From assembly GCA_002869405.1 (NCBI GenBank), contig PKSY01000055.1, positions 1 to 32,610 on the forward strand: a stretch of DNA of 32,610 bases, read 5' to 3'. This stretch comes from Marinilabiliales bacterium. Lineage in GTDB: Bacteria; Bacteroidota; Bacteroidia; Bacteroidales; BM520. A model generated the notes under the pieces. That model was not told the origin of the DNA. It ran no database searches and saw only the letters and a program-made list of their open reading frames with translations. Of the stretch, positions 2,292 to 29,961 are shown piece after piece; the first letter of the stretch is position 1; the number at the start of each line of letters is the position of its first letter. The position numbers and the translations under genes were made by a program.

Positions 2292-2330
2292 AATTTTCCT
2301 CCTACTTATATTACGTGTGTTTTATTACCT

Positions 2331-3608
2331 TTATTGAATTCCTTCTTCTTCAAACAGTCCTTTGATTTTATCAAAGAAGCTTGTTCTGTCTTTTCTGGTG
2401 TTTTTATCTTTCTTCTCGTCTTTCTGGTTAATTGATTGCTTCCGGAGTTCTTTCTCATGTTTTGCAATACCCCGGCTCACAAGTCCTACACCTGTGGCAA
2501 ACATGGGTTGCACCATCTCTTCCGGGCACTCCTTTGAAAGGTGCTCATTAGGATACCCTATGCGTACATCCATGCCGGTAGCAAATTGTGTGAGCTGCAG
2601 GATATGTTTTAGCTGCGCTCCGCCACCCGTAAGTACGATTCCGGCAATCAGTTTTTTCTCATAGCCCGAATTCCTGATCTCAAACATGATGTGTTCAATG
2701 ATCTCTTCCATACGTGCTTCAATAATGGATGCCAGGTTTTTAAGTGAAATCTCCTTGGGTGGTCGTCCACGAAGTCCGGGGATTGCAACAATCTCATCCT
2801 CACGGTTTTCGCTTGAGAGCGCGGACCCAAACTTAACTTTCAGATCTTCAGCATATTTCTTGATGATTGTGCAGCCTTCTTTGACATCTTCAGTAATGAT
2901 ATCTCCACCAAAGGGAACTACTGCAGTATGTCTGATTATTCCATCCTGGAAGATGGCGATATCTGTGGTTCCGCCTCCGATATCTACAAGAACAACTCCG
3001 GCTTCTTTCTCTTCTTCACTCAGCACTGCTTCTGCGCTGGCAATAGGTTCAAGAATAAGTGACTCAACTTCCAGTCCTGCTTTTTTGACACATTTATAAA
3101 TGTTCTTTGCTGCGGTGGTCTGGCCTGTAATAATATGGAAGTTGGCTTCCAGGTTCACTCCCGACATACCCGCCGGTTGCTTGATGCCCTGCTCTCCATC
3201 AATTGTATACTCCTGAGGAATCACATCGATAATCTCTTCCCCGGGGCTCATAGCAAGCTTGTACATCTTCTCTGTGAGCGTATCAATATCATTTTGATTA
3301 ATCTCATCATCGTTGCTGTTACGGATGTGACTGCCATGATGCTGCAGACTTTTGATATGTTGCCCTGCAATACCCACATTAACGGTATGGATATCTACTC
3401 CCGACATCTGTTCTGCCTGTTCGATGGCTGTGGTGATGGAGTTTACTGTATGCTCGATATTTGATACCACGCCGCGCTTTACACCTATTGATTCTGTTTT
3501 GCCATAACCCAGAATCTCCATTTTGCCGTGTTCATCCCTGCGCCCTACAATGGCTGCGATCTTGGTTGTACCAATGTCTAATCCGACTATAATATCTGAT
3601 GTTGCCAT
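2331..3608 (-). CDS. ftsA: Cell division protein FtsA
   Basis: Actin-like VGLDIGTTKIAAIVG, VDIGGGTTDIAIF and VLTGGGAQLKH; C-terminal amphipathic segment FFDKIKGLFEEE. Confidence 0.97.
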   Translation of the reverse strand: MATSDIIVGLDIGTTKIAAIVGRRDEHGKMEILGYGKTESIGVKRGVVSNIEHTVNSITTAIEQAEQMSGVDIHTVNVGIAGQHIKSLQHHGSHIRNSNDDEINQNDIDTLTEKMYKLAMSPGEEIIDVIPQEYTIDGEQGIKQPAGMSGVNLEANFHIITGQTTAAKNIYKCVKKAGLEVESLILEPIASAEAVLSEEEKEAGVVLVDIGGGTTDIAIFQDGIIRHTAVVPFGGDIITEDVKEGCTIIKKYAEDLKVKFGSALSSENREDEIVAIPGLRGRPPKEISLKNLASIIEARMEEIIEHIMFEIRNSGYEKKLIAGIVLTGGGAQLKHILQLTQFATGMDVRIGYPNEHLSKECPEEMVQPMFATGVGLVSRGIAKHEKELRKQSINQKDEKKDKNTRKDRTSFFDKIKGLFEEEGIQ

Positions 3609-3613
3609 AGCTT

Positions 3614-4375
3614 TTATTTTTTTGCTATTATTTGATTATCAAATGAAATGTTGAGTTCGTTATATGTTGTTCGCTCCACAAAAGGAAGCTTTTGTTCATA
3701 AAAAAGCTGCAGATTGTCGAACCGCTCAATGAGGTTTTTGGAGTCACCCACTACAATATTTTTAATGCCTATATTCGGCACTACTTCAAACTTTTTATCT
3801 CTGTTCACGTAGATTTGCTCCGAAAGCGCGTTCATGAAGACATGTTGTGACAATGCTTTTGCGAAAAGATATATATCAGTGTAAACCGGCGTGTCCAGGT
3901 CGCGGATATACATCAGGTCTTCTGTTATGGGGGATATGTAGCCTGTAAATACCGGTACTCTCACCGAAACTTCTCCTGTGGGGAAATAGTATCCTGATTG
4001 TGTGATATAGAATTGCCTGCCTGCCGTATTTATTATTCTGGCAATAATAATTTCCTGTTCGATATATATTTTCAGTACACCGGAAAGCCCGAATGAAATA
4101 TCTGCATCGCTGATAAATGGCGATTGTATAATATTGTATCGTATGCTTTCTAAGTCAATGTCGCGAATTGCTTTGCCTATAATTGAATCGGTATCTTTTA
4201 AGGCAAGTTTGATAACCTCAGCCGGAGCTATGAGCGTATCACCAGGATTATGGTCGTAAATAACTATAATACTTTTGCACGACCTTGTTTTATGCATGTG
4301 GGCAGTAAATACCCCTGCAGCAATAATCAGTATGCCGATTATAATAAATGTGATATGTCGTTTTTTTATTGTCAT
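3614..4375 (-). CDS. ftsQ: Cell division protein FtsQ/DivIB-like
   Basis: Single N-terminal TM; position between murC and ftsA; 4-bp overlap with murC. Confidence 0.8.
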   Translation of the reverse strand: MTIKKRHITFIIIGILIIAAGVFTAHMHKTRSCKSIIVIYDHNPGDTLIAPAEVIKLALKDTDSIIGKAIRDIDLESIRYNIIQSPFISDADISFGLSGVLKIYIEQEIIIARIINTAGRQFYITQSGYYFPTGEVSVRVPVFTGYISPITEDLMYIRDLDTPVYTDIYLFAKALSQHVFMNALSEQIYVNRDKKFEVVPNIGIKNIVVGDSKNLIERFDNLQLFYEQKLPFVERTTYNELNISFDNQIIAKK

Positions 4376-5721
4376 GATTCTATGGCCGTTAATACTTTTT
4401 TAATCTGAGGTACCAGCCTGTCGATATCACCTGCACCCATTGTTACCAAAACCTCAGGATTCTTCTCTTTGATATATTCTGTAAGTTTTTCATACTTAAT
4501 AATTGATGCTTTAGTGCCGGAAATTTTTTCCTTTATGATTTCTGATGTAACACCCGGCAATGGTTCTTCACGTGCCGGATAGATGTCAAGCAGAATGCAC
4601 TCGTCAAGTTTGCTTAGTGCTTCCGCGAATTTTATGGCATGATCCGCAGTTCTTGAATAGAGGTGTGGCTGGAAAACACCAGTGATTTTTTTATCCGGGT
4701 AAAGTTCTTTAAGGGTATGGATACATACTTCAAGCTCCTCAGGGTGGTGCGCATAATCATCAATAAACACATGTTTTTCGTCCTGAATTACAACTTCAAA
4801 CCTTCTGTGCATTCCTTTATAGGATTCGATACCTTTTTTTACCTGCTGCACGGACAGGCCTGCCTCAACAGCTGCAGCCATTGCAGCGACGCTGTTCTCT
4901 ACATTATGTCTGCCGGGAATTTTGCTTGTAATCTTCACCCTGTTGTCGGGAGTAGTGATATGGTAATGATAGCAGTTATCCGAAACACTAACATCATTGG
5001 CAAAATAGGATGATCCGGAATGCAGTCCATAGGATATATCAGTGCAGCACATATTCAACAGATTTTGATGAACGATAACAGTTCCATTGGGCGCTGTTAA
5101 ACCTATAAAGGCATTGAAAGCCTCAACAAGGTTTTTGAAATCGCCGTATATATCCAGATGATCGGGAGCAATGGCAGAAACCAGCGTGATATCTGAATGA
5201 AGATGATGGAAAGATCTGTCATACTCATCAGCCTCCACAATCATATATTTTGGCTTTTCATGATACAGAATATTTGTGTTGTAATTGTTGCTGATACCTC
5301 CCATGAAGGCGAGTACAGGAATGTCTGCTGATTTAAAAATATGTGCCAGCAACCCGGTGATGCTTGTTTTACCGTGTGTTCCGGCAACAGCAATGCATTT
5401 ATGTTCTTTCGAAAGTTGTCCTAAAATTGCAGCGCGTTTATATAATGGTATATTAAGCGATTTTACTGCATTCAACACATTGTTGCCGGCAGGAATTGCA
5501 GGTGTGTAAATTGCAAGATCTGTATCATGGGTTACGAAATGCGAATCATCTTTAAAAAAGACATCGATGCCCTCTTTTTGGAGTTGTTCAGTGAGTTCCG
5601 ATGGCGTTTTATCGTAGCCGTAAACTCTGCAGCCCCTGTACTTATAATAGCGAGCCAGCGCGCTCATGCCGATGCCGCCAATACCAATGAATATGACCGT
5701 ATTAATCTGATCGCTTTTCAT
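4372..5721 (-). CDS. murC: UDP-N-acetylmuramate--L-alanine ligase
   Basis: IGIGGIGMSALA N-terminus, AVAGTHGKTS P-loop, DDYAHHPEE. Confidence 0.97.
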   Translation of the reverse strand: MKSDQINTVIFIGIGGIGMSALARYYKYRGCRVYGYDKTPSELTEQLQKEGIDVFFKDDSHFVTHDTDLAIYTPAIPAGNNVLNAVKSLNIPLYKRAAILGQLSKEHKCIAVAGTHGKTSITGLLAHIFKSADIPVLAFMGGISNNYNTNILYHEKPKYMIVEADEYDRSFHHLHSDITLVSAIAPDHLDIYGDFKNLVEAFNAFIGLTAPNGTVIVHQNLLNMCCTDISYGLHSGSSYFANDVSVSDNCYHYHITTPDNRVKITSKIPGRHNVENSVAAMAAAVEAGLSVQQVKKGIESYKGMHRRFEVVIQDEKHVFIDDYAHHPEELEVCIHTLKELYPDKKITGVFQPHLYSRTADHAIKFAEALSKLDECILLDIYPAREEPLPGVTSEIIKEKISGTKASIIKYEKLTEYIKEKNPEVLVTMGAGDIDRLVPQIKKVLTAIES

Positions 5722-6830
5722 GAGTGCTTTTTTAAGAGGGTGAATACTTCATTTGCAATTGACTCTGCCGCATTGGGTTTTCCTGTCGACTTGATATTCC
5801 CTGCCAGTTCTAATACCTTTTGTTCATTTTCAAGCAATGAGACTATCATCGGAAGCAGCTCTTGTGGCATCTCTTTCTGCGCCATGCAGATTGCCGCATC
5901 CTGATCCTGAAGACTCATGGCATTTTTTGTTTGATGGTCTTCTGCGGCAGTGGGCAATGGAATAAATATGGCACATTTTCCTGCTACAGCAATTTCTGAG
6001 ATTGCAATTGCTCCGGCCCGGGAGATAATAATATCTGCAGCACCGTAGGCCATATCCATTCTTTTTATGAATTTGTGAACTTTGACATTGCTTCCCGACA
6101 GCTCTTCGGAAACCTTTATAGCATCAGTATATCCGTTTTCTCCTGTCTGCCAGATCAGGTTTGCTTTATCTGCTATGGATACTATGTTTTCACTTATTGT
6201 ACGATTAATTGCCATTGAACCCTGGCTGCCGCCAACTACCAGAATTGTCTTTTTGTCTTTCTCAAGTCCGAAAAAGTGAAGTGCTTCGAGCTTATTTTCA
6301 ACCGGACTCTGAAGCTGTTTTCTGATTGGATTTCCCGTTTTAACGATTTTCTCTTCTGCAAAGAACTTTTGCATATTATCATAAGAAACGCATATGGTAT
6401 CTGCTCTTCTGGCTAGGATTTTATTTGTGATTCCGGGAAATGCATTTTGTTCCTGAATCAGGGTCGGGATACGTCGTCTGGCAGCCATGTATAGTGTAGG
6501 TCCTGAAGCATATCCTCCTGTTCCGATGGCAATATCCGGCTGGAACGTACGAATTATCTTTCCTGCTTTTACAAGGCTTTTTAGCAGACGGAATGGAAAG
6601 AGTAGATTTTTCAGGTTTAAAGACCGTGAAATCCCTGAAATATCAAGACCTGTAATGCTGTAACCTGCATCGGGAACTTTAGTCATTTCCATACGGCCAT
6701 TAGCACCCACAAACAGAAATTGAGCATCCGGCTCCTTGTCGCGGATAGCCTCTGCAATGGCGATTGCCGGAAAGATATGTCCACCTGTTCCACCTCCGCT
6801 AATCAGATATTTATGTGGTCTGTTATTCAT
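5718..6830 (-). CDS. murG: UDP-GlcNAc--undecaprenyl-pyrophosphoryl-MurNAc-pentapeptide GlcNAc transferase
   Basis: SGGGTGGHIFPAIAIAEA, VVGGSQGSMAINR, SRAGAIAISEI. Confidence 0.97.
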   Translation of the reverse strand: MNNRPHKYLISGGGTGGHIFPAIAIAEAIRDKEPDAQFLFVGANGRMEMTKVPDAGYSITGLDISGISRSLNLKNLLFPFRLLKSLVKAGKIIRTFQPDIAIGTGGYASGPTLYMAARRRIPTLIQEQNAFPGITNKILARRADTICVSYDNMQKFFAEEKIVKTGNPIRKQLQSPVENKLEALHFFGLEKDKKTILVVGGSQGSMAINRTISENIVSIADKANLIWQTGENGYTDAIKVSEELSGSNVKVHKFIKRMDMAYGAADIIISRAGAIAISEIAVAGKCAIFIPLPTAAEDHQTKNAMSLQDQDAAICMAQKEMPQELLPMIVSLLENEQKVLELAGNIKSTGKPNAAESIANEVFTLLKKHS

Positions 6831-7980
6831 TGCTCTCCTTTATGTCCGTGTTATGTTCTGTTGTTCTGCTGACACTTAAAATAATCCCTACTGCAATCGA
6901 TGTCATCCATATTGATGTTCCGCCCATACTTACCAGTGGCAACGGCTGTCCTGTTACCGGTAAAATCCCGGAAGCTACCATCATATTGATGAGTGCCTGA
7001 AACATGATCATGAATGCCAATCCCTGAACAAGGTAACTTCCGAATTTGCTTGTTGTCCTTGATGCAATTTTGAAGCATTGTGAGAAAAATGAGATGTATA
7101 TTCCCAAAAGGATTAAAAGTGCTATTAACCCACCCTGTTCAATAATTGTTGAGAAGATGAAGTCATTATAACTTTGTGGCAGGAAATGGCGCTGTGTGGA
7201 GTTTCCATACCCTTTTCCCGTGGGCCAGCCATTGGCAATGGCAATTTTCGATTGCAATGCCTGATAGTTGTCCTCTTCAGAGTTATCCCCTGAAAAATAG
7301 TTTTCTATTCTGTGTTCCCATGTCGTGGCCCGGGGTATTGCATCCGGAAAGACCTTGACAATTCCAATGGTTAATACAACTGATAGCCCGGCAATCCCTA
7401 TTAAGGATCTTAGAAGTTTAGCATTTGCATTTCCAATCAATAGCATCACAAATGAGATAGCAAATACCATCATTGCCGTACTAAGGTTGAAAGGCAGAAT
7501 TAATAAACAGATAAGAAAAATTGGTAAGTAAACCGGAATAATGCTTTTCGTAAAGCTAAAGGTTTTCAACGCTTCATTGTCTGAGGCCATTAGCCGGGCC
7601 AGGTACATTACAATCCCGATTTTTGCAATATCGGATGGCTGAAATGTGAGGCCCAGGGGCAGCTGAAGTACACGTTTGGCATCATTTACATTAAGGCCGG
7701 CTACAATAGTTAGTATTAGCAGCGCTATGCTGATATAGAGGACAATTAAAGCAAGTTTGCTGAACCTGACAATGTTCAGGTGCTTGTGAATCAGATATAT
7801 AATTGCGAATCCGGTAAGAAGAATGAAGCCATGTTTAAACAGGAAAAATGAGGTGTTGCCACCATGGCTTACCCATGCCAGGTTCCCGATAGTACTGAAA
7901 ACAGCTATCAGGGAAATGGATAGTAAGCCTATTACTATTCCCCACAGTTTTTTATTTCCTTCTAACCGAAAGCGTTCCAT
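6823..7980 (-). CDS. ftsW: Peptidoglycan glycosyltransferase FtsW (SEDS family)
   Basis: Polytopic SEDS-type protein; P-rich G(K)GYGNSTQRHFLPQSYNDFIFSTIIEQGG; PVTGQPLPLVSMGGTS. Confidence 0.95.
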   Translation of the reverse strand: MERFRLEGNKKLWGIVIGLLSISLIAVFSTIGNLAWVSHGGNTSFFLFKHGFILLTGFAIIYLIHKHLNIVRFSKLALIVLYISIALLILTIVAGLNVNDAKRVLQLPLGLTFQPSDIAKIGIVMYLARLMASDNEALKTFSFTKSIIPVYLPIFLICLLILPFNLSTAMMVFAISFVMLLIGNANAKLLRSLIGIAGLSVVLTIGIVKVFPDAIPRATTWEHRIENYFSGDNSEEDNYQALQSKIAIANGWPTGKGYGNSTQRHFLPQSYNDFIFSTIIEQGGLIALLILLGIYISFFSQCFKIASRTTSKFGSYLVQGLAFMIMFQALINMMVASGILPVTGQPLPLVSMGGTSIWMTSIAVGIILSVSRTTEHNTDIKESNE

Positions 7981-7981
7981 A

Positions 7982-9316
7982 TTAAAGATTGTTTACTGCT
8001 TCAATGAATTTCTCTCCTCTCTCTTCATAGTTTTCAAACAGGTCGAAGCTTGCGCATGCCGGAGACAGTAATACTGTTTCACCGGGATGTGCAGCCTGAT
8101 AAGCCATATTTACAGCTTCCTGCATTGAGTTGGCTTGTTGAATTACGTCAACATGGTCGATAAATGCTTCCACCAGTTTCCGGTTGTCTTTGCCAAGACA
8201 AATAAGCACATCAACACGCTCCTTCACCAGTTCAGTGAGTTTGGAATAGTCGTTTCCTTTATCAATACCGCCGGCAATCCAGATGATGGGGTCCCGTTGC
8301 GACTCCAGTGCAAACCACGTGCTGTTTACATTAGTGGCTTTACTGTCGTTGATAAAAGTCACACCATGAATTGTGGCCACTTTTTCAAGCCGGTGCCCCG
8401 CATTTTTAAAGTCAGATAAACATTGTTTAATGTTTTCTTTGCGGATGTCCACCAGCCGTGAGGCTACACCGGCAGCCATGGAATTGTACACATTGTGTCT
8501 GCCTTGTAATGCTAATTCTTCAAGTGTCATATCTGTTCTTTTCTGATTTATTTCTATGTGAATAGTGTTGTCTTTGAGGTATGCTGCTGCACTGCTATCT
8601 GCTGATAGCGTAATGCGATGAATCTGTGCTTTGACCGGAGTTTGTGCCAGCATCTCCATGGTTTTTGGATCATCGGCACAAACAATAAGATGATCATGTT
8701 CATCCTGATTCATGGTGATGCGCATTTTCGACTGTGCATACTCTTGAAAACTATTATGATACCGGTCGAGATGATCCGGTGTAATATTGGTAAGAATTGC
8801 AATGTGTGGTTTAAATCCGGTAATCCCGTCCAGCTGGAAACTGGAGACTTCGAGTATATAGTAATCATACCCTGCCATAACAGCTCTTGAAAAGCTGTAA
8901 CCCACATTCCCTGCTGCAATACTTCTTAACCCTGCCGATTCAAATATGTAATTTGTTAACAGTGTTGTAGTTGTTTTACCGTTGGCTCCGGTAATGCCAA
9001 TAACTTTTCCTTTGCAGAAGCGCCAGGCAAATTCGATTTCAGATATAATTTCAATATCATTAGCCCTGAGATCCTTTATTGTTTGGGATTCATCAGGGAT
9101 TCCGGGACTTTTTACCACTAAATCTGCATTGTAAATAGCCGACGTATGGCCATGCACTTCATAAGGAATGTTCATCCTTTGAAGTTCGTCAGTGAAGCAA
9201 TCCTTAATGGCACCATTGTCGGATACAAAGGGCTTCATTCCGGCCTTTTGTGCCAACAGTGCTGCTCCGGTTCCGGATTCTCCACCACCTAATATGACAA
9301 TACGTTTGTTGTTCAT
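7982..9316 (-). CDS. murD: UDP-N-acetylmuramoylalanine--D-glutamate ligase
   Basis: GGGESGTGAALLA, ITGANGKTTTT, NDSKATN, LSPACASFDLFENYEERG. Confidence 0.97.
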   Translation of the reverse strand: MNNKRIVILGGGESGTGAALLAQKAGMKPFVSDNGAIKDCFTDELQRMNIPYEVHGHTSAIYNADLVVKSPGIPDESQTIKDLRANDIEIISEIEFAWRFCKGKVIGITGANGKTTTTLLTNYIFESAGLRSIAAGNVGYSFSRAVMAGYDYYILEVSSFQLDGITGFKPHIAILTNITPDHLDRYHNSFQEYAQSKMRITMNQDEHDHLIVCADDPKTMEMLAQTPVKAQIHRITLSADSSAAAYLKDNTIHIEINQKRTDMTLEELALQGRHNVYNSMAAGVASRLVDIRKENIKQCLSDFKNAGHRLEKVATIHGVTFINDSKATNVNSTWFALESQRDPIIWIAGGIDKGNDYSKLTELVKERVDVLICLGKDNRKLVEAFIDHVDVIQQANSMQEAVNMAYQAAHPGETVLLSPACASFDLFENYEERGEKFIEAVNNL

Positions 9317-10564
9317 TTATCTGAGTTTCAGTGTTACTACTGATATTACAGCCAATAATATTCCCACCAGCAGAAACCGCATTACGATTTTTGCCTCCGG
9401 GTATCCTTTTTTCTGATAATGATGATGTAGCGGCGACATCAGAAATATTCTGCGTCCTTCGCCGTATTTTTTGCGTGTGTATTTAAACCAGGTCACCTGC
9501 ATCACTACGGAGAGGTTTTCCATAAGGAATACTCCGCAAAGAATTGGCAGGAGTAACTCTTTACGAATCATTATGGCAAATACTGCGATGATACCTCCAA
9601 TGGCCAGGCTTCCTGTATCGCCCATAAATACCTGAGCAGGGTAGGAGTTAAACCAGAGGAAACCGAGACAGGCTCCCACAAAGGCACTGATAAACACTGT
9701 CAGCTCTCCCACATGCGGGATATACATGATGTTTAGGTAATCAGAGAATACTATGTTGCCTGAAACCCATGCAAATATGGCCAGTGTTGCACCTACAATA
9801 GCTGATGACCCAGTAGCAAGTCCGTCTAGGCCGTCGGTGAGGTTTGCACCGTTGGAAATTGCCATGATGATAAATATCACTATAGGGATAAATATCAGCC
9901 ATGCCCATTTTTGTGCACCTTCACCGGCCCAGTTAATAATCCTGCCATAATCAAGCTCGTTATTCTTAAAAAATGGTATAGTGGTTTTTGTGGATTGAGT
10001 AGCTTCTCCAAAAACAGGGTTTTCCTCTTCCGACCACTCCTGGTGATAGGATGATGCTTCCCCTGTGGTTTCCACTCTGATTTTTTCTTTTATCACTATG
10101 TCAGGATGGAAGAACATTGTTGCTCCAACCACAAGACCCAGAATTAACTGACCTAAAAGTTTAAACCTGCCGGCAAGGCCTCCTTTATTCTTTTTGAATA
10201 CCTTAATATAATCATCGAGGAAGCCGATAAAACCCATCCACACGGTAGTGAACAGGATCAGGAGGATATAGATGTTGTCGAGTCGGGCGAATAGTAACGT
10301 GGGGACGATGATTGCCAGCAGAATGATAATACCTCCCATTGTTGGAGTACCTTCCTTCTCTTTCTGCCCGTGAAGACCCAGGCTGCGGACAGTTTCTCCT
10401 ACCTGTTTCTTTCTGAGCACCTTTATAAGCTGTTTGCCAAACAACATGGAAATAATCAGGGATGTAATCAGCGAACTTGCTGCCCGGAATGAGATGTATT
10501 GAAATACACCTGCTCCCGGCAGATCCAATGCTTTATCGAAATAATCAAAAAGATAATATAGCAT
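9317..10564 (-). CDS. mraY: Phospho-N-acetylmuramoyl-pentapeptide transferase
   Basis: [47 protein letters not shown]; carries an insertion (about [30 protein letters not shown]). Confidence 0.97.
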
Positions 10565-10569
10565 AGTTT

Positions 10570-12027
10570 CTAGTTTTCAGTTTTTAAAATTTCCCCGACA
10601 ATAGCTTTATCGTCGAATGGGTGCTTTACACCTTTTATTTCCTGGTATTTCTCATGCCCTTTTCCTGCTACAAGGACAATATCTCCCGGAGCAGCAATGG
10701 TACATGCCGTTCTTATGGCCTCTCTGCGGTTAGTTATGCGCAAGACATTTCGTTTATCGGTGATTTCCACACCTTCCATCATCATATCGATAATTGCATC
10801 CGGGTCTTCACTTCTTGGGTTGTCTGAGGTCAGTATCAGTTTAGTACTTAGTTTTGAAGCTATGGATGCCATTTCAGCACGTTTGGAGGTGTCTCTGTCG
10901 CCGCCTGCACCTGCAACTGTGATAAGCTGACCCTGTCCTTCACGGATGTCATTAATGGTACTTAGTACATTCTTCAAAGCATCAGGAGTATGCGCATAGT
11001 CGATAACAGCCGTAACTCCGTTGTCACCATTTATAATGTCAAAGCGTCCTTCCACCGTCGATGCCTTTGATAAGGCTATCAGTACTTCCTGTTTGTTTTG
11101 GTTTAATAATACCGCTGTTGCAAATGCGGCAGTGAGGTTATATGCATTAAAGCTTCCGCAGAACCTGCTCCAGAACTCTTCATTATCCAGATTTAGGTAG
11201 AGCCCGGTGAAACTGTTTTCCAATAACCGCGTTTTGAAGTCAGCCATCCCTTTTAGCCCATAGGTTTTTACCTCTGCCATGGTATTCTGGATCATAATTT
11301 TTCCGTTCTTATCATCTGTGTTTGTCAGTGCGAATGCGGTTTTAGGCAGTTGATCAAAGAATGCCTTCTTTGCTTCCAGATATGCTTTGAATGTTTTATG
11401 ATAGTCGAGGTGATCGTGTGTCAGGTTTGTAAATACACCACCTGCAAATTGAAGACCTGCAATTCTGTGCTGATCCACAGCATGACTGCTAACTTCCATA
11501 AAGCAGTATTCGCAATTCTCTTCCGCCATTCTGGCTAACATTTTCTGAATTGATACTGCATCAGGAGTAGTGTGTGTAGAAGGGAGAACCTCTTCCCCGA
11601 TAATTATATTAATGGTACTTAACAGTCCGCACTTGTATCCCAGATTGGAGAACAGATTATGTAGCAGCGTTGCAATTGTGGTTTTTCCGTTTGTACCTGT
11701 TATGCCAACTACTTTTAGTGCTTTTGAAGGATGGCCATAAAATGCGGAGGCTAGTTCTCCGGCTCCTATGGCACTGTTCTTCACCTGTATGCCGCAAATG
11801 TTTTCAGGAAGCGTTACATCCTGTTCATAAATAATAAGTGCAGCACCCTGAGCAACAGCTTTTGAGATGTATTGGTGGCCGTCGGTAACAGTTCCGTTTA
11901 TGGCAATAAATGCATCTCCTTGCTGCACCTCTCTTGAATCAATGCAGATATGCTTAAGATTCCCGGGCCAGCTGCCTGAAATCTTCATGATTTCGCTCTG
12001 AATAAATATGTCCTGCGGTTTCTGCAT
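10570..12027 (-). CDS. murE: UDP-N-acetylmuramoyl-tripeptide synthetase MurE, meso-diaminopimelate type by motif
   Basis: [25 protein letters not shown] motif (DNPR). Confidence 0.96.
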
Positions 12028-12029
12028 TT

Positions 12030-14114
12030 TTATTGTAGTGTTACTGATATTCTGTTTGTTGTTATTTGTGATCCCGGTTCAGGTTGCTGTTGTATTACTT
12101 TGCCTTTTCCGTTTGCCCTTACTGACATCCCTGCTGATTCGGCCATATAAATTGCATCTCTGAGGCCCAGTCCTTTCAGATTTGGGACTCTTCCTTCCGG
12201 TGGGATACTCTCATTTATGTTTGTGTTCATTTCGGTGTCAATCGTCATGCTGGCCCATTCAGTGCCGGACTTTGCTGCCCTGTATCCCATTGTCCGGAGT
12301 ATCTCTTTCAGATCTTCCAGATAGCCATACTGATATGCGCTGTATTTTACTATTGTATCGGTATCTTTGGAATGGATGGAGATGTCGGATGCATATACCC
12401 TGTCAGCAATCTCCTTGAATACAGGTACAGCCACTGATGATGCGTAATATTTTCCTGCTCCGGGGCGGTTTACTACCACGATACATGAATATTTCGGGTT
12501 TTCAGCCGGAAAGTATCCTACAAAAGATGCATTGTATTGCCTTGCGCCATACCCTTCATTGCCGGAATGTATCTGGGCAGTACCTGTTTTACCTGCAACA
12601 TTATACGGGGAATTGCGGAAAGCCAGTCTTCCGGTACCTTCATTTACTACCTCTTCCAATAGATACTGTGCATCTGCTATGGCTTCACTTCCTGCTATCC
12701 TGTTATTCAGAATTTCAGTCTCTGCTTTGTAATGAACTATGTTCCCTTCACGAATCTCTGTAACGAATTTTGGCTTTACGTAAACCCCGTCGTTTGCAAC
12801 AGCATTATAAAAGCCCAATACCTGAAGTGGTGTCAGCATTAATTCATATCCAATCGACATCCAGGGAAGACTTACGCCGGACCATTGTTTGTGGCTTTTA
12901 TCCTTTATGAAAGGGGAGGGCTCACCCGGAATTTCCACGCCCTGCATTTGGGCAAGGTTGAATTTTTTCAATGTATTTATATACTGCTGAGGTTTATCTC
13001 CGTAATACTTTTGAGCAAACCACGATATGGCAGCATTTGACGATTCTTCAAAAGCTGTTTCAAGAGAGTAAACAAACTCGCCCTTATGAATATGGCTGTC
13101 AATCATTCTTTGATTGTAGTAGTATTTAACCCCGTCTTTGATTTTTACTGTGTCTGCGATAGTTGCTTTTTTATCTTCCAGCAATGCCAGCACTGTTGCA
13201 AGTTTAAAGGTGGATCCCGGTTCCATGGAAGACCCCAGCGCTACATTGTATGATTCTGTAAGCGGGCCGGTTTTTGTCGACAGGTTTGCAATTGCGAGGA
13301 TATTCCCTGTATTCACCTCCATCAGAACTGCACATCCCTCGATGGCTCTTTGTTCCATCAGGTGTTTTTTAAGTGCGTTTTCCAGCACATCCTGATAAAG
13401 CATATTCAGGGTAGTGACAATGTCGTAGCCATTTTTAGGTTCTACGTTTTCATTCATCTCCACAGGTTTGAACATGCCGGCAGAGATTCTTTTTTCCAGT
13501 CTTGAGACTTTTTCTCCGGCAAGGAACCCGGAATAAGCGCCTTCGATTCCAACATCATTATCTGTTCCCTCACGATCCAGTCCAATTGTTCTGAACGCCA
13601 GTTCCTGATAGGGGTATTGTCTTTGTGTGTGTGTTTCTGTTATGAGTCCGCTTTTATATCTGCCTTCATTGAAAACCGCGCGCGTTTTCAGGCGCTTAAT
13701 CATTTCATAACTGGCTTCTTTTTCAATAAGATAATAGCGGTTTTCTGTGCGTATTGCTTTTTTGAGTTCTTTCAGGTAATGGCTTTTTGTGCCGTTAAGG
13801 GCATCTGCCAACCCTGTGGCCATGGTGTCGAGAACACCGCCTGCGATGCGCGCCTCCAGTACATGATAATCCCAGCGAAGGGTAAACACAGGTACCGATG
13901 TAGCAATAAGCTCTCCGTCAGCACTCAGAATATTGCCTCTTATTCCGCTTACTTCGCGGGTTCTGTATGCATTCTTCTCTGCCAGTTCCCGGAGTTCCGG
14001 GCCGGGAATCAGGAATATATATATAACGCGTACCAGTACCAGTAATGCACCAAAGAGCATAAGAAAGTAGATCAGGTAGCTGCGTGTTGATATGTGCTTT
14101 TCCTGTTTACTCAT
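12030..14114 (-). CDS. ftsI: Division-specific PBP transpeptidase FtsI/PBP3 with C-terminal PASTA domain
   Basis: N-terminal TM; PBP dimerisation region; SMEPGSTFK (SxxK), SSN, AGKTGTAQ (KTG); C-terminal VPNLKGLGLRDAIYMAESAGMSV PASTA-like repeat. Confidence 0.96.
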   Translation of the reverse strand: MSKQEKHISTRSYLIYFLMLFGALLVLVRVIYIFLIPGPELRELAEKNAYRTREVSGIRGNILSADGELIATSVPVFTLRWDYHVLEARIAGGVLDTMATGLADALNGTKSHYLKELKKAIRTENRYYLIEKEASYEMIKRLKTRAVFNEGRYKSGLITETHTQRQYPYQELAFRTIGLDREGTDNDVGIEGAYSGFLAGEKVSRLEKRISAGMFKPVEMNENVEPKNGYDIVTTLNMLYQDVLENALKKHLMEQRAIEGCAVLMEVNTGNILAIANLSTKTGPLTESYNVALGSSMEPGSTFKLATVLALLEDKKATIADTVKIKDGVKYYYNQRMIDSHIHKGEFVYSLETAFEESSNAAISWFAQKYYGDKPQQYINTLKKFNLAQMQGVEIPGEPSPFIKDKSHKQWSGVSLPWMSIGYELMLTPLQVLGFYNAVANDGVYVKPKFVTEIREGNIVHYKAETEILNNRIAGSEAIADAQYLLEEVVNEGTGRLAFRNSPYNVAGKTGTAQIHSGNEGYGARQYNASFVGYFPAENPKYSCIVVVNRPGAGKYYASSVAVPVFKEIADRVYASDISIHSKDTDTIVKYSAYQYGYLEDLKEILRTMGYRAAKSGTEWASMTIDTEMNTNINESIPPEGRVPNLKGLGLRDAIYMAESAGMSVRANGKGKVIQQQPEPGSQITTNRISVTLQ

Positions 14115-23676: not shown

Positions 23677-26600
23677 CTATTTCCTGCGACGTGATTGAAT
23701 AGTTCTGGCGGTAATAAATCCTGCTAAAGAAATCAGGATTAGTCCTGCAAGGATGAACAGCCAATGATTATTCCTGGTCACAGGATTCTGGTTACCGATG
23801 GAGACATATCCGGCCCAAAACCTGGGATGTGCTGTTAAAGGGTCACCTGTTTCCAGGAGATCAAGTTTAGCCTGACGCAGAGCTTGATCTTTTGAGTATC
23901 CTTTTTTCAGGTATTTATAAAATGACTCCATGATTAACGCACTTCTTGCATCATCTACCGACCAAAGCGTCATTACAACGCTGGGAACTCCTGCATAAAA
24001 GAAACCTCGTGCAAGAGACAGAATGCCTTCACCCTCTTTAATAGCTCCATCGCCGGTTTGACAGGCACTTAGCACTGCCATTTTTGATTGCAGAGACATA
24101 GAAAAGAGTTCACTGGTATACAGCACCCCGTCATCGGTTGAATTTGTTGTATCGGGAGCTGAGAATACCAATTTTGAATATGTGGGGTTTTTGGGGTCGA
24201 TCAATGTATGCATCGCCAGGTGAAGGATGTCATATTCCGGAGCATATTTTTTAAATGCATCCTCAGTAGCTTCTTTCCCTTCCAGGGTTGAACCAGAAAA
24301 ATACTTTTGAATGGACTTTATTTCATCTTTTACTCCGGGAATAGGAGCAAGCTGACTTAACAGGGTGTCTCCGCCATAAGTCAATCCTTTATAGTCATAT
24401 TCGGGGGCAAAGGCTAAAAGCTTTCCTTTTGAATTTCCTTTATAATCATTTCTGTCTTCAAACAGTAGCGTGGCAGAGTATGAATAGCTTATCTCATTAT
24501 GTTTAAGCAGGTAATCAGGACTTCTGAAATCCATTTTTTCAGAATCCGGCATTTTTGTAATTAAAGCTTCAAAAGGAATATATCCAAGCTTTGAATCAGG
24601 AATGATAATCAGGGATTTATCTATGATGGATGCTTCAAAAGGTGAGATCAGTTTTTGATATAAATAATATGATGAATTGATGAAAGTCTCATAATCTTTA
24701 CGTGAGTAATTTGCCAGCTCTGACGCATCAAGAGCGCTGCGCAGTGTATCAATACTTGATGTATTGATTTCGATTTTTTCTACTGATAATGAACCTGATG
24801 ATATTGCAAAAGCAAAAACAGTGCTGTCATGAAGACTAAACTCAATAAGGAAATGTTCAGGGCCAAGTCGTTGCTGAATTTCTGATGGTGAAATTACTTC
24901 CAGCTGTTTTGTTACATCCTGAAATCCCGGATTTAATTTGTTAAGATGGGCTTCCAGACTATCTTTTTTTCTGTTGAGATTAAAAATCTGTGTGTTTAAT
25001 AAATCTATTTTGCTTTGATCTGCCTTGTCCGCATCAGAAGCTTCATAAAGTGCTCTCATTGCTTTTTCCAGTTGAGATTCGAGGCTCAGCAGGTTGTCAA
25101 GATCTTTTGGTGATATCGATTGATTTCGGATTACCGTCTCCCTGTATGCTTCCAGCAGCGTTGAATATTTGCTCTTCTCTGTAAAGTTGTACGCATAATT
25201 GAGGTAAATCGTATCCCCGGTGATGGCATAAAGTTCATAATTCACCTCAATGGCATGATGGTATATTTGATTACTCTGACCTGACAGGAATAGTTTACTG
25301 TCATCATAACTGTACGAGGTTTTAAGCAAATCAAGAACTGCTGAAGCATCTTTAAAAGTTGTGGCAGCAAGAATAAGTCTCTCTTTATTTTTTTCAGCCC
25401 TGCCGGTTTCGAATAATACCTGCGCTTTAAGAGCCAGAATTCCAAGAAGCTCATAAGGTGATTCAGATGTTTCTATGTTAGGATTAATATGAAAATCTGT
25501 GTCATTAAAACCCGGTTCAAGAGCAATCAGAGCATCCTGAATATGAGCGAGTGCAGCAGGATAATCTTTTATGGTATAGTAGTAATTTGCAAGAATCGAA
25601 TGGATTATTGCCACATTATCTCGTTTGTCAACATCCTGTTTTCTTAATATGGAGATTGCTGCGTTAAGGTTCTCTATGGCTCGAGCCGGCCGTCCTGTTT
25701 CTATGAGGAACTGGCCGTAATCCTGCAGCGCGTAGGCATATTCAAGATTGATTTCATCGTTCCTGGTTTTTGCCAGAGCCAGGGCTTTCTCAAATGTCTC
25801 TTCGGCCGGTTGTTTCATATAGAGGCCGTGATAACTTTGCGCCAGATTACAAAGTGAACGTATTGCAGTAGAGCTGTTGCTGTTGTTTTCAAGACCTTTC
25901 TCAAAGTATCGGATTGCCTGGTCATACTCCTGAAGGCGAAAATATGTATAGCCAATATTATTATAAAGTGACCGTAGGTTTTCTTCACTTAAGTTTTTAA
26001 AACTTAAAGCTTTAAGATAATATTCGCGGGCTTTTGTGAAATCTGCAACCTGTACAAAAATATTTCCCTGATTAAGGTATACATTACCTAATAATTCATA
26101 ATCAGGACCAAACAGCTGAGTAGCAATACGAATTGCTTCATCGAACATTTCTGATGCCTGATGGAACTGTTTTCTGTCGAAATATATATTCCCCAGGTTA
26201 TTATGGTAGATGATGTCGTTTCTGCTTTGTGGTAACCCATAGAAGCGTTTTAATTCAAGGGCTGTTTTGAAGTAGGGCAGGGCCTGATCAAAATCCTGCA
26301 TCCGGGCATAAATTGTGCCAATTGCCTGGGTGTATTTTATTAGGTGACCAGGATTTAATTTTGAGAAGTTTTCCACAAGATTTCTGGCAGAGAGGTATTG
26401 TGGTATTGCCTCTGACAGCATACCCATTCTGTAAAGGCACTGTCCTTTGAGTCCAAATGCCCTTCCCAAAAGCGAAGTATCTGGTTTGGCGCTGTTTTGC
26501 AATAAGTTAATAGTGGTATCCAGATAAGCGATTGCTTTCTCAAATTCATTTCTCCTTTTTGCGTATCCTGCGATAGCATAATAGGCGGGAGCTGCAGTAC

Positions 26601-26943
26601 ATTCGGATTCAGAATTATCATCAGGGATATAGGATAATATACTCTTTGCTTCTTCCTCTGACAGAGTGTTCCCGCTGTTAAAGTACTCTGCAACAGCATG
26701 ACCAAGAAAGGCTTTACATCTGAATTCAGGGTATCTGTTTATATCTTCACGGGCAGCAACCTGAAAAAACAAAGTTTCCGCCGACTGATATTTATCCATG
26801 TTAAGTGAATCGTAAGCCCTGAGAATTTTTTCATTTATATTATAACGCACTGCTGCATCATCCTGAGCAAAGATATTGCTACCCAGCGAAGTGAGAAAAA
26901 GTACTATAAGGCAATTGATAAACTGGGGGCTTATTCTTTTCAT
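23677..26943 (-). CDS. Exported TPR-CHAT domain protein (putative caspase-like/separase-like protease)
   Basis: Signal peptide, many TPR-like repeats, CHAT domain with HLAMHT (His) and LSACQTGDG (Cys), EGEGILSLARGFFYAGVPSVVMTLWSVDD; C-terminal TM WLFILAGLILISLAGFITA followed by RRRK. Confidence 0.92.
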   Translation of the reverse strand: MKRISPQFINCLIVLFLTSLGSNIFAQDDAAVRYNINEKILRAYDSLNMDKYQSAETLFFQVAAREDINRYPEFRCKAFLGHAVAEYFNSGNTLSEEEAKSILSYIPDDNSESECTAAPAYYAIAGYAKRRNEFEKAIAYLDTTINLLQNSAKPDTSLLGRAFGLKGQCLYRMGMLSEAIPQYLSARNLVENFSKLNPGHLIKYTQAIGTIYARMQDFDQALPYFKTALELKRFYGLPQSRNDIIYHNNLGNIYFDRKQFHQASEMFDEAIRIATQLFGPDYELLGNVYLNQGNIFVQVADFTKAREYYLKALSFKNLSEENLRSLYNNIGYTYFRLQEYDQAIRYFEKGLENNSNSSTAIRSLCNLAQSYHGLYMKQPAEETFEKALALAKTRNDEINLEYAYALQDYGQFLIETGRPARAIENLNAAISILRKQDVDKRDNVAIIHSILANYYYTIKDYPAALAHIQDALIALEPGFNDTDFHINPNIETSESPYELLGILALKAQVLFETGRAEKNKERLILAATTFKDASAVLDLLKTSYSYDDSKLFLSGQSNQIYHHAIEVNYELYAITGDTIYLNYAYNFTEKSKYSTLLEAYRETVIRNQSISPKDLDNLLSLESQLEKAMRALYEASDADKADQSKIDLLNTQIFNLNRKKDSLEAHLNKLNPGFQDVTKQLEVISPSEIQQRLGPEHFLIEFSLHDSTVFAFAISSGSLSVEKIEINTSSIDTLRSALDASELANYSRKDYETFINSSYYLYQKLISPFEASIIDKSLIIIPDSKLGYIPFEALITKMPDSEKMDFRSPDYLLKHNEISYSYSATLLFEDRNDYKGNSKGKLLAFAPEYDYKGLTYGGDTLLSQLAPIPGVKDEIKSIQKYFSGSTLEGKEATEDAFKKYAPEYDILHLAMHTLIDPKNPTYSKLVFSAPDTTNSTDDGVLYTSELFSMSLQSKMAVLSACQTGDGAIKEGEGILSLARGFFYAGVPSVVMTLWSVDDARSALIMESFYKYLKKGYSKDQALRQAKLDLLETGDPLTAHPRFWAGYVSIGNQNPVTRNNHWLFILAGLILISLAGFITARTIQSRRRK

Positions 26944-26975
26944 ACCTCAAACCACTGAACCTGTTGTTCTGATTA

Positions 26976-26983
26976 CAAATTTA
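26976..26983 (-). promoter_or_regulatory. Putative -7 box for the TPR-CHAT gene
   Basis: Minus strand TAAATTTG (perfect TAnnTTTG) between an upstream terminator and the ATG at 26943. Confidence 0.4.
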
Positions 26984-27008
26984 AAAAAAAACCTGAAGAT
27001 TCACAGTA

Positions 27009-27049
27009 CAAAATAAAACAGGTTGCTTCGGGGAAAAAGCAACCTGTTT
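27009..27049 (-). terminator. Rho-independent terminator of the T9SS cargo gene
   Basis: Minus strand AAACAGGTTGCTT-tttccccg-AAGCAACCTGTTT (13-bp perfect stem) followed by TATTTTG. Confidence 0.75.
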
Positions 27050-27089
27050 GAGCGGTGTTACGTTGTTGTATTCTATAACTAATTGGGAT

Positions 27090-28340
27090 TTATTTTGTGA
27101 TTAGGACTTTACCTGTAGTCAGTACACTATTTTTATTTTCAATTTGATAGATGTAATATCCCGGTGAAAGGTTTGTGACATCTATTGCACTCTTAGTATC
27201 TTCAAGTAATACTGAAATTACTGCCTTACCTGTCAAATCTCTGACAGTAAAGGTGCTGTTTTGGTTTTGTGCCTCAACAAACAGGATATCAGTTGCGGGA
27301 TTCGGATATATTGAAACTGATTCCTCGAAATTGTTTAATGAAGTTGTTGTTTCTTTATTTAATACGTTGATTGACTGACTAACAAGTTTTGTTGTATTTT
27401 CTGATTTTCCGTCAGCAGTAATGTATGCAGATTCATCATCAAGAGAGAAAACGACTTCCTGTGGTTGAGCGTTCTCATTAACAGTGACATAGAGAGTGAT
27501 AATGGCATTATCTTTTTCAATGTGGAGGCTTTCCGTATTCTGACCAGTCATCCAGTTAAATCCAATTAATCCGTCAGCTTCCTCGGCACGATATTCCATT
27601 TCTGCAGGATTTGTTTCATACTCTTCAATGGTAACAACATCTGCATCATATTTTATACCCATGTAAAGAGCTGCAACATCGATTGTCTCGCTGGCATAGA
27701 AAGATACTTCAACGGTTTCACCCGGAAGCACATTAATTGTTTGGTTGGAAACAATTGTGGATTTCTCTTTGTCATCATCAATAATATAGGAACCACAGAT
27801 ATCGCCTGAGCATGTAGCGCCAAGTTCATTTCCACCAACAGACTGACCGTCTTTCGAAGGAGTAAAAGTATATTCCATGCTGTCGAAAAGCCATGGCTCA
27901 TTATTAAATGGAAGTTGGTAAATAAGCCAGTCGATGAGGATGTCCCAATAATCACCCCAGTCAATATTGCCATTGTTGTTTACATCAGCAGCAATAGCCT
28001 GATATCCTTCCAGGTTAATAAATCCAAACATATGGAACATTACCATAAATGCATCGCTGAGTTCCACTCCGCCTGCGGGGAGTTCAGTTTCTGCCAAAAT
28101 AGTAAAGGTGCCATAAGGAATATTGGTGAGTTCATAGTATCCGTTATCATCAGTTACAACACTTTGTATAAATGTATTATCTGCATTTTGAATAGTAACT
28201 GTAACTGAAGGAACCGGATTGTCTGAATTGCCGTGGTAGAGCACATTTCCGGAGAAAGTGTTTTGAGCTGTTGCTGTAGTCGAGAATAATGATAATGTAA
28301 TGATAAATAATCCAGCGAAAATAGAGTACAACTTTTTCAT
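27090..28340 (-). CDS. T9SS type A sorted protein with CnaB-like, dockerin-like and cohesin-like regions
   Basis: Signal peptide; VTVTIQNADNTFIQSVVTDDNGYYELTNIPYGTFTI; GVELSDAFMVMFHMFGFINLEGYQAIAADVNNNGNIDWGDYWDILID; VLPGETVEVSFYASETIDVAALYMGIKYDADVVTI; C-terminal VSIYPNPATDILFVE...VLITK. Confidence 0.85.
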   Translation of the reverse strand: MKKLYSIFAGLFIITLSLFSTTATAQNTFSGNVLYHGNSDNPVPSVTVTIQNADNTFIQSVVTDDNGYYELTNIPYGTFTILAETELPAGGVELSDAFMVMFHMFGFINLEGYQAIAADVNNNGNIDWGDYWDILIDWLIYQLPFNNEPWLFDSMEYTFTPSKDGQSVGGNELGATCSGDICGSYIIDDDKEKSTIVSNQTINVLPGETVEVSFYASETIDVAALYMGIKYDADVVTIEEYETNPAEMEYRAEEADGLIGFNWMTGQNTESLHIEKDNAIITLYVTVNENAQPQEVVFSLDDESAYITADGKSENTTKLVSQSINVLNKETTTSLNNFEESVSIYPNPATDILFVEAQNQNSTFTVRDLTGKAVISVLLEDTKSAIDVTNLSPGYYIYQIENKNSVLTTGKVLITK

Positions 28341-28613
28341 TTTTTTCTGTTTTAAAATTTAACACCGCAAAGACACTGAATCAATCCCCATATCAATGTC
28401 CGTACCCTTAATCCGCTTTTTTTAAAAAGGTAATACTGTTTTTCCCAACTTTTTTTTAAAATTTTCGTAAATCAGGATATAATATTATACTTTAGACACA
28501 GAAAACGGGTGATGTTTAAAATTATAATGTTGGTATACAGTAGTTTGTGCTAAGAGGTTACAAGTTTTTAAAAAAAACATATTTTTTTTGTATTACTTTT
28601 TGATAAAAATCGG

Positions 28614-29216
28614 ATGAATAAGAGAACGAGATTTTTGTATAGCGATAAGGATTATCTGGATGGATTGAAGACGAGAGATTCCGAAATTATCACTGCCATA
28701 TATTACAATCATATAGATCTTGTGAAGAATTTGGCTGTGAAGAATTCTGGAAATGAGGAAGATGCAGAAGATTTATTTCAGGATGCAATCATTATTACTT
28801 ACAAAAAAATTGTGAATGAAGAGCTGGAATTAACCAGCACATTTAGAACGTTCTTTTACAGTATTTGTCGTAATCTATGGCTTCAGCGCCTTAGCAAACG
28901 TCCGGGAAAAGTAATCGATATTGCTGATGTGGAAGAATATGTTCCACTTTCTGATAGTCAGGAATATGAAATTCATGATGAATCAGAAAACAGGGAAAGG
29001 TTATATCTGAAACACTTCGGAAAATTATCTTCTGATTGTCAGAAAATTCTTAAACACTTTGCTGAAGGTAAAAGCGTACGTGAAATCGCACAAATAATGC
29101 GATATAAAAGTGAGGATTATGCCAAATCAAGAAAGTATCAGTGTAAAGAGAATTTGAAAAAAAGGATTAAAAACGACCCCTTATACAAAGAACTACTTGA
29201 CAATGAAGAAGAATAG
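28614..29216 (+). CDS. ECF-type RNA polymerase sigma factor (sigma-70 family)
   Basis: Region 2 (NEEDAEDLFQDAIIITYKKI, FRTFFYSICRNLWLQRL) and region 4-like helix-turn-helix (LSSDCQKILKHFAEGKSVREIAQIMRYKSEDYAKSRKYQCKENLKKRI). Confidence 0.9.
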   Translation: MNKRTRFLYSDKDYLDGLKTRDSEIITAIYYNHIDLVKNLAVKNSGNEEDAEDLFQDAIIITYKKIVNEELELTSTFRTFFYSICRNLWLQRLSKRPGKVIDIADVEEYVPLSDSQEYEIHDESENRERLYLKHFGKLSSDCQKILKHFAEGKSVREIAQIMRYKSEDYAKSRKYQCKENLKKRIKNDPLYKELLDNEEE

Positions 29217-29961
29217 CCTACAAGAAAAACTCGAGCGATATCTCAAAGGAGATATGTCTGCAAAAGAGATGAAGAAATTTGAAGACTCTCTGATGAAAGA
29301 TAATGAGATGTTGCGCGAGATAGCCCTTGAGCAGGAGCTCGAAACAGTACTTGGAGATGCAGATATCCTCGATCTCAAAATGAAACTTGATGCAATACGT
29401 TATAAGGAGAGTAGAAATCAAATGTTATCTCCAATTATCCTAAGTATGAAGTCAAACATGAAGTATATCGCAGCCGCAGCAAGTATGGGGGTTCTGATAA
29501 CTGCCGGTGTACTTACACTTACTCCAAGGAATTATTCTTCCGACAAGTTGTTTAAAATGTATTATCAGCCTGATAAAGCCGTTATTGTCAATCGCGCAGG
29601 CAGGGGAAACGTTAATATCGTTGAAGCATTAATGAAGTTCCAGAAGAAGGATTATGACGCTGCTTCTGGAATGTTCGAAGAAATCCTTCTGAACAACCCT
29701 GATAATATAGCATTGCGCTTCTATAACGGGATATCGTACATAGAAACTGAAAAATACGATGAGGCTATTAAGTCGTTTAATCTGATCCTGGAAAATAAGG
29801 ATAACCTTTACATTGAGCATGCTGAATGGTACCTCGCTCTCTGTTACCTTAAAAAGGAAGATGTTGACGAGGCAAGAAAACAACTCTTGCGCATAGCGAA
29901 CGAAGAAGATGGCTTTTATAAAGAAGATGCACAAAAAATTCTTGAAAAGCTCGACAAGTAA
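29203..29961 (+). CDS. Single-TM TPR protein, candidate anti-sigma/signal transducer
   Basis: Overlaps the sigma gene (ATG at 29203; the track uses a TTG at 29197). N-terminal LQEKLERYLKGDMSAKEMKKFEDSLMKDNEM; TM YIAAAASMGVLITAGVLTLTP; C-terminal TPR-like repeats. Confidence 0.8.
   Translation: MKKNSLQEKLERYLKGDMSAKEMKKFEDSLMKDNEMLREIALEQELETVLGDADILDLKMKLDAIRYKESRNQMLSPIILSMKSNMKYIAAAASMGVLITAGVLTLTPRNYSSDKLFKMYYQPDKAVIVNRAGRGNVNIVEALMKFQKKDYDAASGMFEEILLNNPDNIALRFYNGISYIETEKYDEAIKSFNLILENKDNLYIEHAEWYLALCYLKKEDVDEARKQLLRIANEEDGFYKEDAQKILEKLDK

Follow-up and report, generated by a model that had tools for sequence, protein, structure and literature searches.

The 32,610-nucleotide stretch of Marinilabiliales bacterium DNA analysed here (contig PKSY01000055.1; hereafter the window) carries a locus of four genes encoding an extracytoplasmic function (ECF) sigma factor, a transmembrane (TM) protein with tetratricopeptide repeats (TPRs), a surface protein secreted by the type IX secretion system (T9SS) and a TPR-CHAT protein. 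The first-pass annotation had placed the four genes at positions that our analysis bears out and had separated the two minus-strand genes by a terminator, which we locate; it had also proposed that the four may act as one regulatory module, in envelope stress, proteolysis or surface adhesion. Coordinates are collected in Table 1.

Table 1. Features of the four-gene locus, in window coordinates
Feature	Position	Strand	Remarks
ECF sigma factor gene	28614..29216	+	Open reading frame from ATG 28614; TIGR02937, Sigma70_r2
TM-TPR protein gene, 252 residues	29203..29961	+	Predicted single TM segment, periplasmic TPRs
R131 codon of the TM-TPR protein	29593..29595	+	Conserved linker Arg near the membrane; proposed site of cleavage
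Putative promoter of the sigma/anti-sigma operon, TATTACTTTTTGATAAAAATCGGATGAA	28591..28618	+	
Putative T9SS gene promoter with the element of the sigma promoter, TATTACCTTTTTAAAAAAAGCGGATTAA	28408..28435	-	
T9SS-secreted surface protein gene	27090..28340	-	CNA-B-like domain, dockerin-like loop, cohesin-like domain, type A sorting tail
Intrinsic terminator separating the T9SS gene from the CHAT gene	27049-27016	-	14-pair stem, then T-rich tail
TPR-CHAT gene, predicted exported protease, 1088 residues	23677..26943	-	C-terminal membrane anchor, TM at about residues 1062-1079
CHAT domain	23791..24663	-	Invariant H908, H912, C961

The sigma factor exceeds the cut-offs of TIGR02937 (59.2 bits) and Sigma70_r2 (36.8 bits) and comprises regions 2 and 4, the latter weak in Pfam (E = 0.014), with no region 3. 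Translation from TTG 28635, giving 193 residues, seems likelier than from ATG 28614, because the ATG falls in the -10 of the promoter of this gene and the orthologues have a length of about 193 residues. The best start for the TM-TPR gene is ATG 29203, not TTG 29197, and the gene overlaps that of the sigma factor by 14 bp. Its product consists of a helical N-terminal domain (residues 1-71), a TM segment at about residues 86-106 and TPRs from residue 137; an AlphaFold2 model (mean predicted local distance difference test score 83) shows four helices, a single TM segment and then TPRs.

The TPR-CHAT protein, encoded by the only CHAT gene of this 3.49 Mb genome, matches PF12770 with 203.7 bits against a cut-off of 24 and contains many TPRs. 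It has a signal-like hydrophobic stretch at the N-terminus and, at the C-terminus, a TM segment with a basic tail. H908, H912 and C961 are invariant in alignment A5, and the catalytic His and Cys motifs are present in 130 of 136 CHAT relatives. We read it as an exported, membrane-anchored protein with predicted protease activity. Structural matches of the CHAT model are separase, Csx29 and DdvA, a transmembrane anti-sigma factor of Myxococcus xanthus that contains a CHAT domain (PDB 8ROT, 8RW5); in a PDB search the single CHAT domain gave nothing useful and the CHAT profile matched DdvA. At the C-terminus of the T9SS protein is a type A sorting domain (PF18962 and TIGR04183, 48.0 bits each), and a CarboxypepD_reg (CNA-B-like) domain also scores above cut-off. 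Its earlier description as a cohesin/dockerin-like T9SS protein stands for the secretion tail and for the Cohesin match (26.5 versus 24.1 bits); a Pfam scan of the protein finds no dockerin, and that part of the description comes down to a dockerin-like loop seen by eye, ADVNNNGNIDWGD, in which D119 and D130 are invariant.

The sigma, TM-TPR and CHAT genes are linked in both directions of search. An order-level survey covered 295 genomes, 159 with a CHAT gene and 140 with a sigma match at 1e-6; 31 of the pieces fetched around the 60 best sigma matches contain a CHAT gene, and several others end at contig ends. By our own estimate of about one CHAT gene per 3 Mb, chance would place one within 10 kb of fewer than 1% of sigma genes. 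For the reverse survey 80 named CHAT loci were fetched, and 33 of the 38 that extend 5 kb or more to each side have a sigma and/or TM-TPR gene within 6 kb. At the phylum level, 22 of 31 TM-TPR matches lie no more than 7 kb from a CHAT match (our own count, spanning several families of the same class and of the wider phylum). Among 20 CHAT loci sampled regardless of sigma, the module is frequent with high-scoring CHAT proteins that have a C-terminal TM segment and generally missing with low-scoring ones; these loci indicate that sigma linkage is a property of one CHAT clade. The gene-neighbourhood survey that the first-pass annotation had named as a check on its single-module proposal thus finds the co-occurrence strongly conserved, and the sequences point almost certainly to one module of sigma, TM-TPR and CHAT genes across Bacteroidales and further Bacteroidota families.

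Opposite strands, and the terminator that divides the two minus-strand genes, are what might be expected of four unrelated genes that happen to be neighbours. Gene orders differ among loci, however, being divergent, convergent, co-directional on one strand or with CHAT between sigma and anti-sigma, and because they differ the association can be said to survive rearrangement. With the linkage around CHAT genes, the promoters shared by these genes (see below) and a census of module loci, this rules out a chance neighbourhood, which we consider exceedingly improbable. The census comprises 92 loci, each entered on a CHAT gene plus sigma or TM-TPR, so that its counts show what the module is made of and do not test linkage: CHAT is found in 92, sigma in 89, TM-TPR in 81, a HisKA-HATPase kinase in 28, the T9SS protein in 24 and a C39-peptidase ABC exporter in 15. 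The T9SS gene is therefore the least general part of the four-gene locus.

Other features of these loci may be recorded here. The kinase, soluble and recognized by Pfam, is a frequent partner (for example L089:12388-13236, L142, L143, L172 and L176), and its gene has its own motif-like promoter in L089 and L079. The C39-peptidase exporter, of about 729 residues and often accompanied by an HlyD-like gene, adjoins the module in loci such as L198, L172, L176 and L195, hinting at export of double-glycine peptides. In a distant family (L275, L276), sigma (186 residues), anti-sigma-like, CHAT and T9SS-type genes all lie on one strand. A second anti-sigma paralogue is found across CHAT from the first in L129, L143, L163 and L217, and CHAT genes occur in tandem in L042 and L131.

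A two-part element of fixed spacing, TTACCTTTT-N10-GGATWAA, lies upstream of both the sigma and the T9SS genes in window-like loci. Both copies in the window are without mismatch, where 0.03 matches are expected even if two mismatches are allowed, and they are the only perfect copies in the whole genome. The fetched loci, 2.79 Mb in all, contain 48 matches to the strict element, 39 of them directly before sigma or T9SS genes, versus 0 for a reversed control; in 14 genomes with a window-like arrangement there are 37 element sites versus 2 in the control. In convergent loci a sister form, GGTTACCTTTT...GAATTAA, stands before the sigma and the T9SS gene alike. We consider it very likely from this distribution that the sigma factor activates both its own operon and the T9SS gene, and the shared promoter supplies the regulatory connection, rather than a single operon, that the first-pass annotation had anticipated. 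In the window (28591-28635), as in many orthologues, the -10 is followed within a few bases by the likely sigma start codon, so that the sigma mRNA probably has no leader or almost none. An additional site in the same genome (C340:13870, one mismatch) precedes a secreted protein, and another (C29:3418) has no clear gene. By eye, the sigma motif is also seen about 50 bases upstream of single-domain response-regulator genes in two families (L243, L246), and a further element site before a C39-VKOR-like protein gene.

The same element is found before 0 of 100 CHAT genes, and CHAT is very probably outside the control of the sigma promoter, acting either upstream of it or independently. As to a housekeeping promoter before CHAT, TAnnTTTG is twofold enriched there, yet equally so before sigma. 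These data bear on the possibility that the CHAT protein is an output of the system or a separate protease for surface processing, one that trims or matures T9SS or other envelope proteins and lies near the sigma pair through a common process. In window-like loci the CHAT and T9SS genes do adjoin on one strand, as this would suggest, but none of the 100 CHAT genes carries the sigma promoter, and CHAT keeps company with the T9SS gene in far fewer of the census loci than with sigma or anti-sigma. We regard such a role as unlikely.

The TM-TPR protein, which had been described as a transducer, can be specified further. Its overlap with the sigma gene, the gene order, the TM topology and the zf-HC2-like N-terminus of relatives all suggest a membrane anti-sigma factor of the ECF sigma factor, and the pairing with sigma in the census and the N-terminal helices preceding a TM segment agree with this assignment, which we hold with good confidence. 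Against zf-HC2, a zinc anti-sigma motif, the N-terminal domain scores E of about 4e-4 in L272 and L084, slightly below the Pfam cut-off, with HxxxCxxC present in L272 and absent from L084; a profile scan of the window protein itself gives no anti-sigma domain match. In 13 related proteins the domain occurs in two to four copies, and tandem copies before the TM segment are seen in anti-sigma genes of about 500 residues (L134, L135, L147, L148, L160, L084 and L098). Could the protein instead activate sigma or tether it to the membrane, so that a cut by CHAT switches sigma off? The sign of the regulation is a prediction, and in L047:3146-4492 sigma and TM-TPR share one reading frame of 448 residues (not checked for assembly error), a natural fusion that also accords with a sigma/anti-sigma pair. 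The gene order, topology and zf-HC2-like N-terminus are nevertheless of the anti-sigma type, and an activating role appears very unlikely.

Related proteins also suggest what may act on such an anti-sigma factor. In three anti-sigma-like proteins (L104:8676-9743, L113:540-1601 and L117:10344-11399) a trypsin-like domain (Trypsin_2, E from 3e-22 to 1e-21) replaces the TPRs outside the TM segment, and the genomes concerned (G069, G092 and G265) are without any CHAT match. Because these fusions occur in relatives that lack CHAT, an outer-side protease seems to go with this sigma family.

A candidate site for proteolysis is found close to the membrane. Most relatives have LFxxYYxP just outside the anti-sigma TM segment and an arginine about 25 residues from it, with S, G or A as the usual next residue; in the window protein this is R131, kept in about 90% of relatives and nearly invariant in alignment A2. 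The linker arginine is present in 69 of 74 anti-sigma proteins of CHAT loci versus 14 of 21 others, and of 108 linkers 97 contain R[SGA], against 120 among 1252 control windows. The R[SGA] motif persists in the majority of 14 strongly divergent proteins from the phylum, also where the TPRs have been replaced. In L055 and L067, where sigma, anti-sigma and CHAT form a co-directional row, the CHAT protein is without its C-terminal anchor and the anti-sigma protein without the conserved arginine. A stretch of 12 residues (10-15) separates the end of the CHAT domain from the core of that protein's C-terminal TM segment; protease and arginine, both close to the membrane, would therefore be expected to occupy the same layer. 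Clan CD proteases often cut after arginine, and R131 is proposed as the cleavage site for this reason; cleavage there by CHAT strikes us as about evenly balanced.

The best explanation of these observations, to which we would give an even chance as a whole, is a switch operated by regulated proteolysis. At rest, the four-helix N-terminal domain of the anti-sigma factor would tether the sigma factor to the inner membrane, with the TPR-CHAT protein anchored beside it and its protease domain near the periplasmic face. Upon a cue, probably sensed via the TPR arrays and, at a guess, consisting of T9SS protein that accumulates or is bound in the periplasm, CHAT would cut the anti-sigma factor after R131, within the linker that joins its TM segment to the TPRs. 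The usual proteolytic steps in the membrane and in the cytoplasm would follow and release the sigma factor, which would activate the two divergent promoters of its own operon and of the T9SS surface protein gene. Two precedents favour the switch: the cutting of Csx30, an inhibitor of sigma, by Csx29 (PMC10028731) and DdvA, a CHAT protein that is an anti-sigma factor in its own right. In general terms, a CHAT protein of the caspase/separase family would be the site-1 protease for an ECF anti-sigma factor outside the inner membrane, cutting after a conserved arginine; for this broader statement we stop just short of even chances. Linkage, geometry and the conserved arginine would equally suit a CHAT protein that is a sensor or scaffold and docks on the arginine linker without cutting it, the cut being made by a DegS-, PrsW- or RseP-like protease or the release being allosteric, and DdvA unites CHAT domain and anti-sigma factor in a single protein. 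Pure docking would not need the His and Cys motifs that nearly all CHAT relatives keep, however, and the trypsin-like protease fused in CHAT-less relatives also speaks for cutting, so that we think docking rather unlikely.

Several points weigh against the cleavage switch: (i) the proposed cut is a prediction from sequence; (ii) the conserved arginine could serve structure or docking instead, and the anti-sigma proteins of L107, L116 and L119 keep it with no CHAT gene nearby, CHAT being located elsewhere in those genomes; (iii) a Foldseek search with the N-terminal domain returns TPR-type matches only and no anti-sigma fold; (iv) on the tree only two changes underlie the association of the CHAT anchor with the module, for which reason the C-terminal TM segment, in spite of a significant Fisher test, was not credited with correlating independently with module membership; and (v) a role for CHAT proteolysis in DdvA is not established in the literature covered.

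Membership in a defence system was also considered and rejected, as PADLOC gave only generic TPR matches and one weak OloA match. Elsewhere in the window, positions 711-14114 hold an ordinary cluster of genes for division and the cell wall (FtsZ, FtsA, Mur ligases, MurG-like, FtsW, MraY-like and a penicillin-binding protein). The module is amenable to testing, because cultured species of Marinifilum, Mangrovibacterium, Mariniphaga and Ancylomarina carry the sigma, anti-sigma and CHAT genes.

Among known systems, RseA/DegS and RsiW/PrsW likewise have a single-TM anti-sigma factor, a protease-sensitive site outside the membrane (here a proposed one) and an autoregulated sigma operon. They differ in using serine or PrsW proteases, where a clan CD cysteine protease is proposed here, and membership in the DegS/RseA pathway is rejected since the candidate protease is CHAT and trypsin-like domains are found only in the CHAT-less relatives examined. 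The class I anti-sigma domains (ASDI), in which the zinc motif is optional (PMC7406223), share with our protein a short helical N-terminal domain followed by one TM segment and a gene beside that of an ECF sigma factor; most members here are without Hx3Cx2C and below the Pfam cut-off, and their outer part consists of TPRs with an arginine linker. According to the same study, anti-sigma domains are found beside 6% of Bacteroidetes ECF sigma factors versus 32% overall, and the control of the rest is left open (PMC7406223). The module would be one widespread answer, complete with candidate protease, substrate site, promoter and target.

Two systems come closer. In DdvS/DdvA, whose trigger is unknown (PMC4374960), an ECF sigma factor is again paired with a transmembrane anti-sigma factor tied to CHAT, and both profile and model of the window CHAT match DdvA. 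There, however, CHAT is inside the anti-sigma chain and the target is an antiphage island (PMC12288465), whereas here two proteins each have their own TM segment and the target that can be recognized is a T9SS surface protein; none of the CHAT proteins fetched contains the anti-sigma N-terminal domain, and in this respect the module is not of the DdvA type. In Craspase (type III-E CRISPR, Cas7-11/Csx29/Csx30/CASP-sigma; PMC10028731, PMC9729208), the TPR-CHAT protease Csx29, among the best structural matches of the window CHAT model, cleaves Csx30 and so relieves inhibition of an ECF-like sigma factor (PMC10028731). That system is cytoplasmic and RNA-guided, and Csx30 is not a TM-TPR protein, whereas the protein here is predicted to be exported and membrane-anchored. 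Craspase itself is rejected for the locus, as CHAT has a signal stretch and a TM segment and no cas gene is present among the window genes scanned (a genome-wide cas search was not made).

The literature searched, which missed most subscription papers, contains no description of an ECF and CHAT module outside Craspase, and the module is apparently undescribed so far. It would resemble Craspase and DdvS/DdvA in its working and is neither, since anti-sigma factor and predicted protease are separate membrane proteins and the locus shows no CRISPR effector. Caspase-like CHAT proteases, familiar from CRISPR-guided Craspase, would thereby be tied to ordinary cell-envelope signalling. If the cleavage switch is true, it forms a separate class of regulated-proteolysis signalling across Bacteroidota, with Craspase and DdvA as relatives by mechanism.

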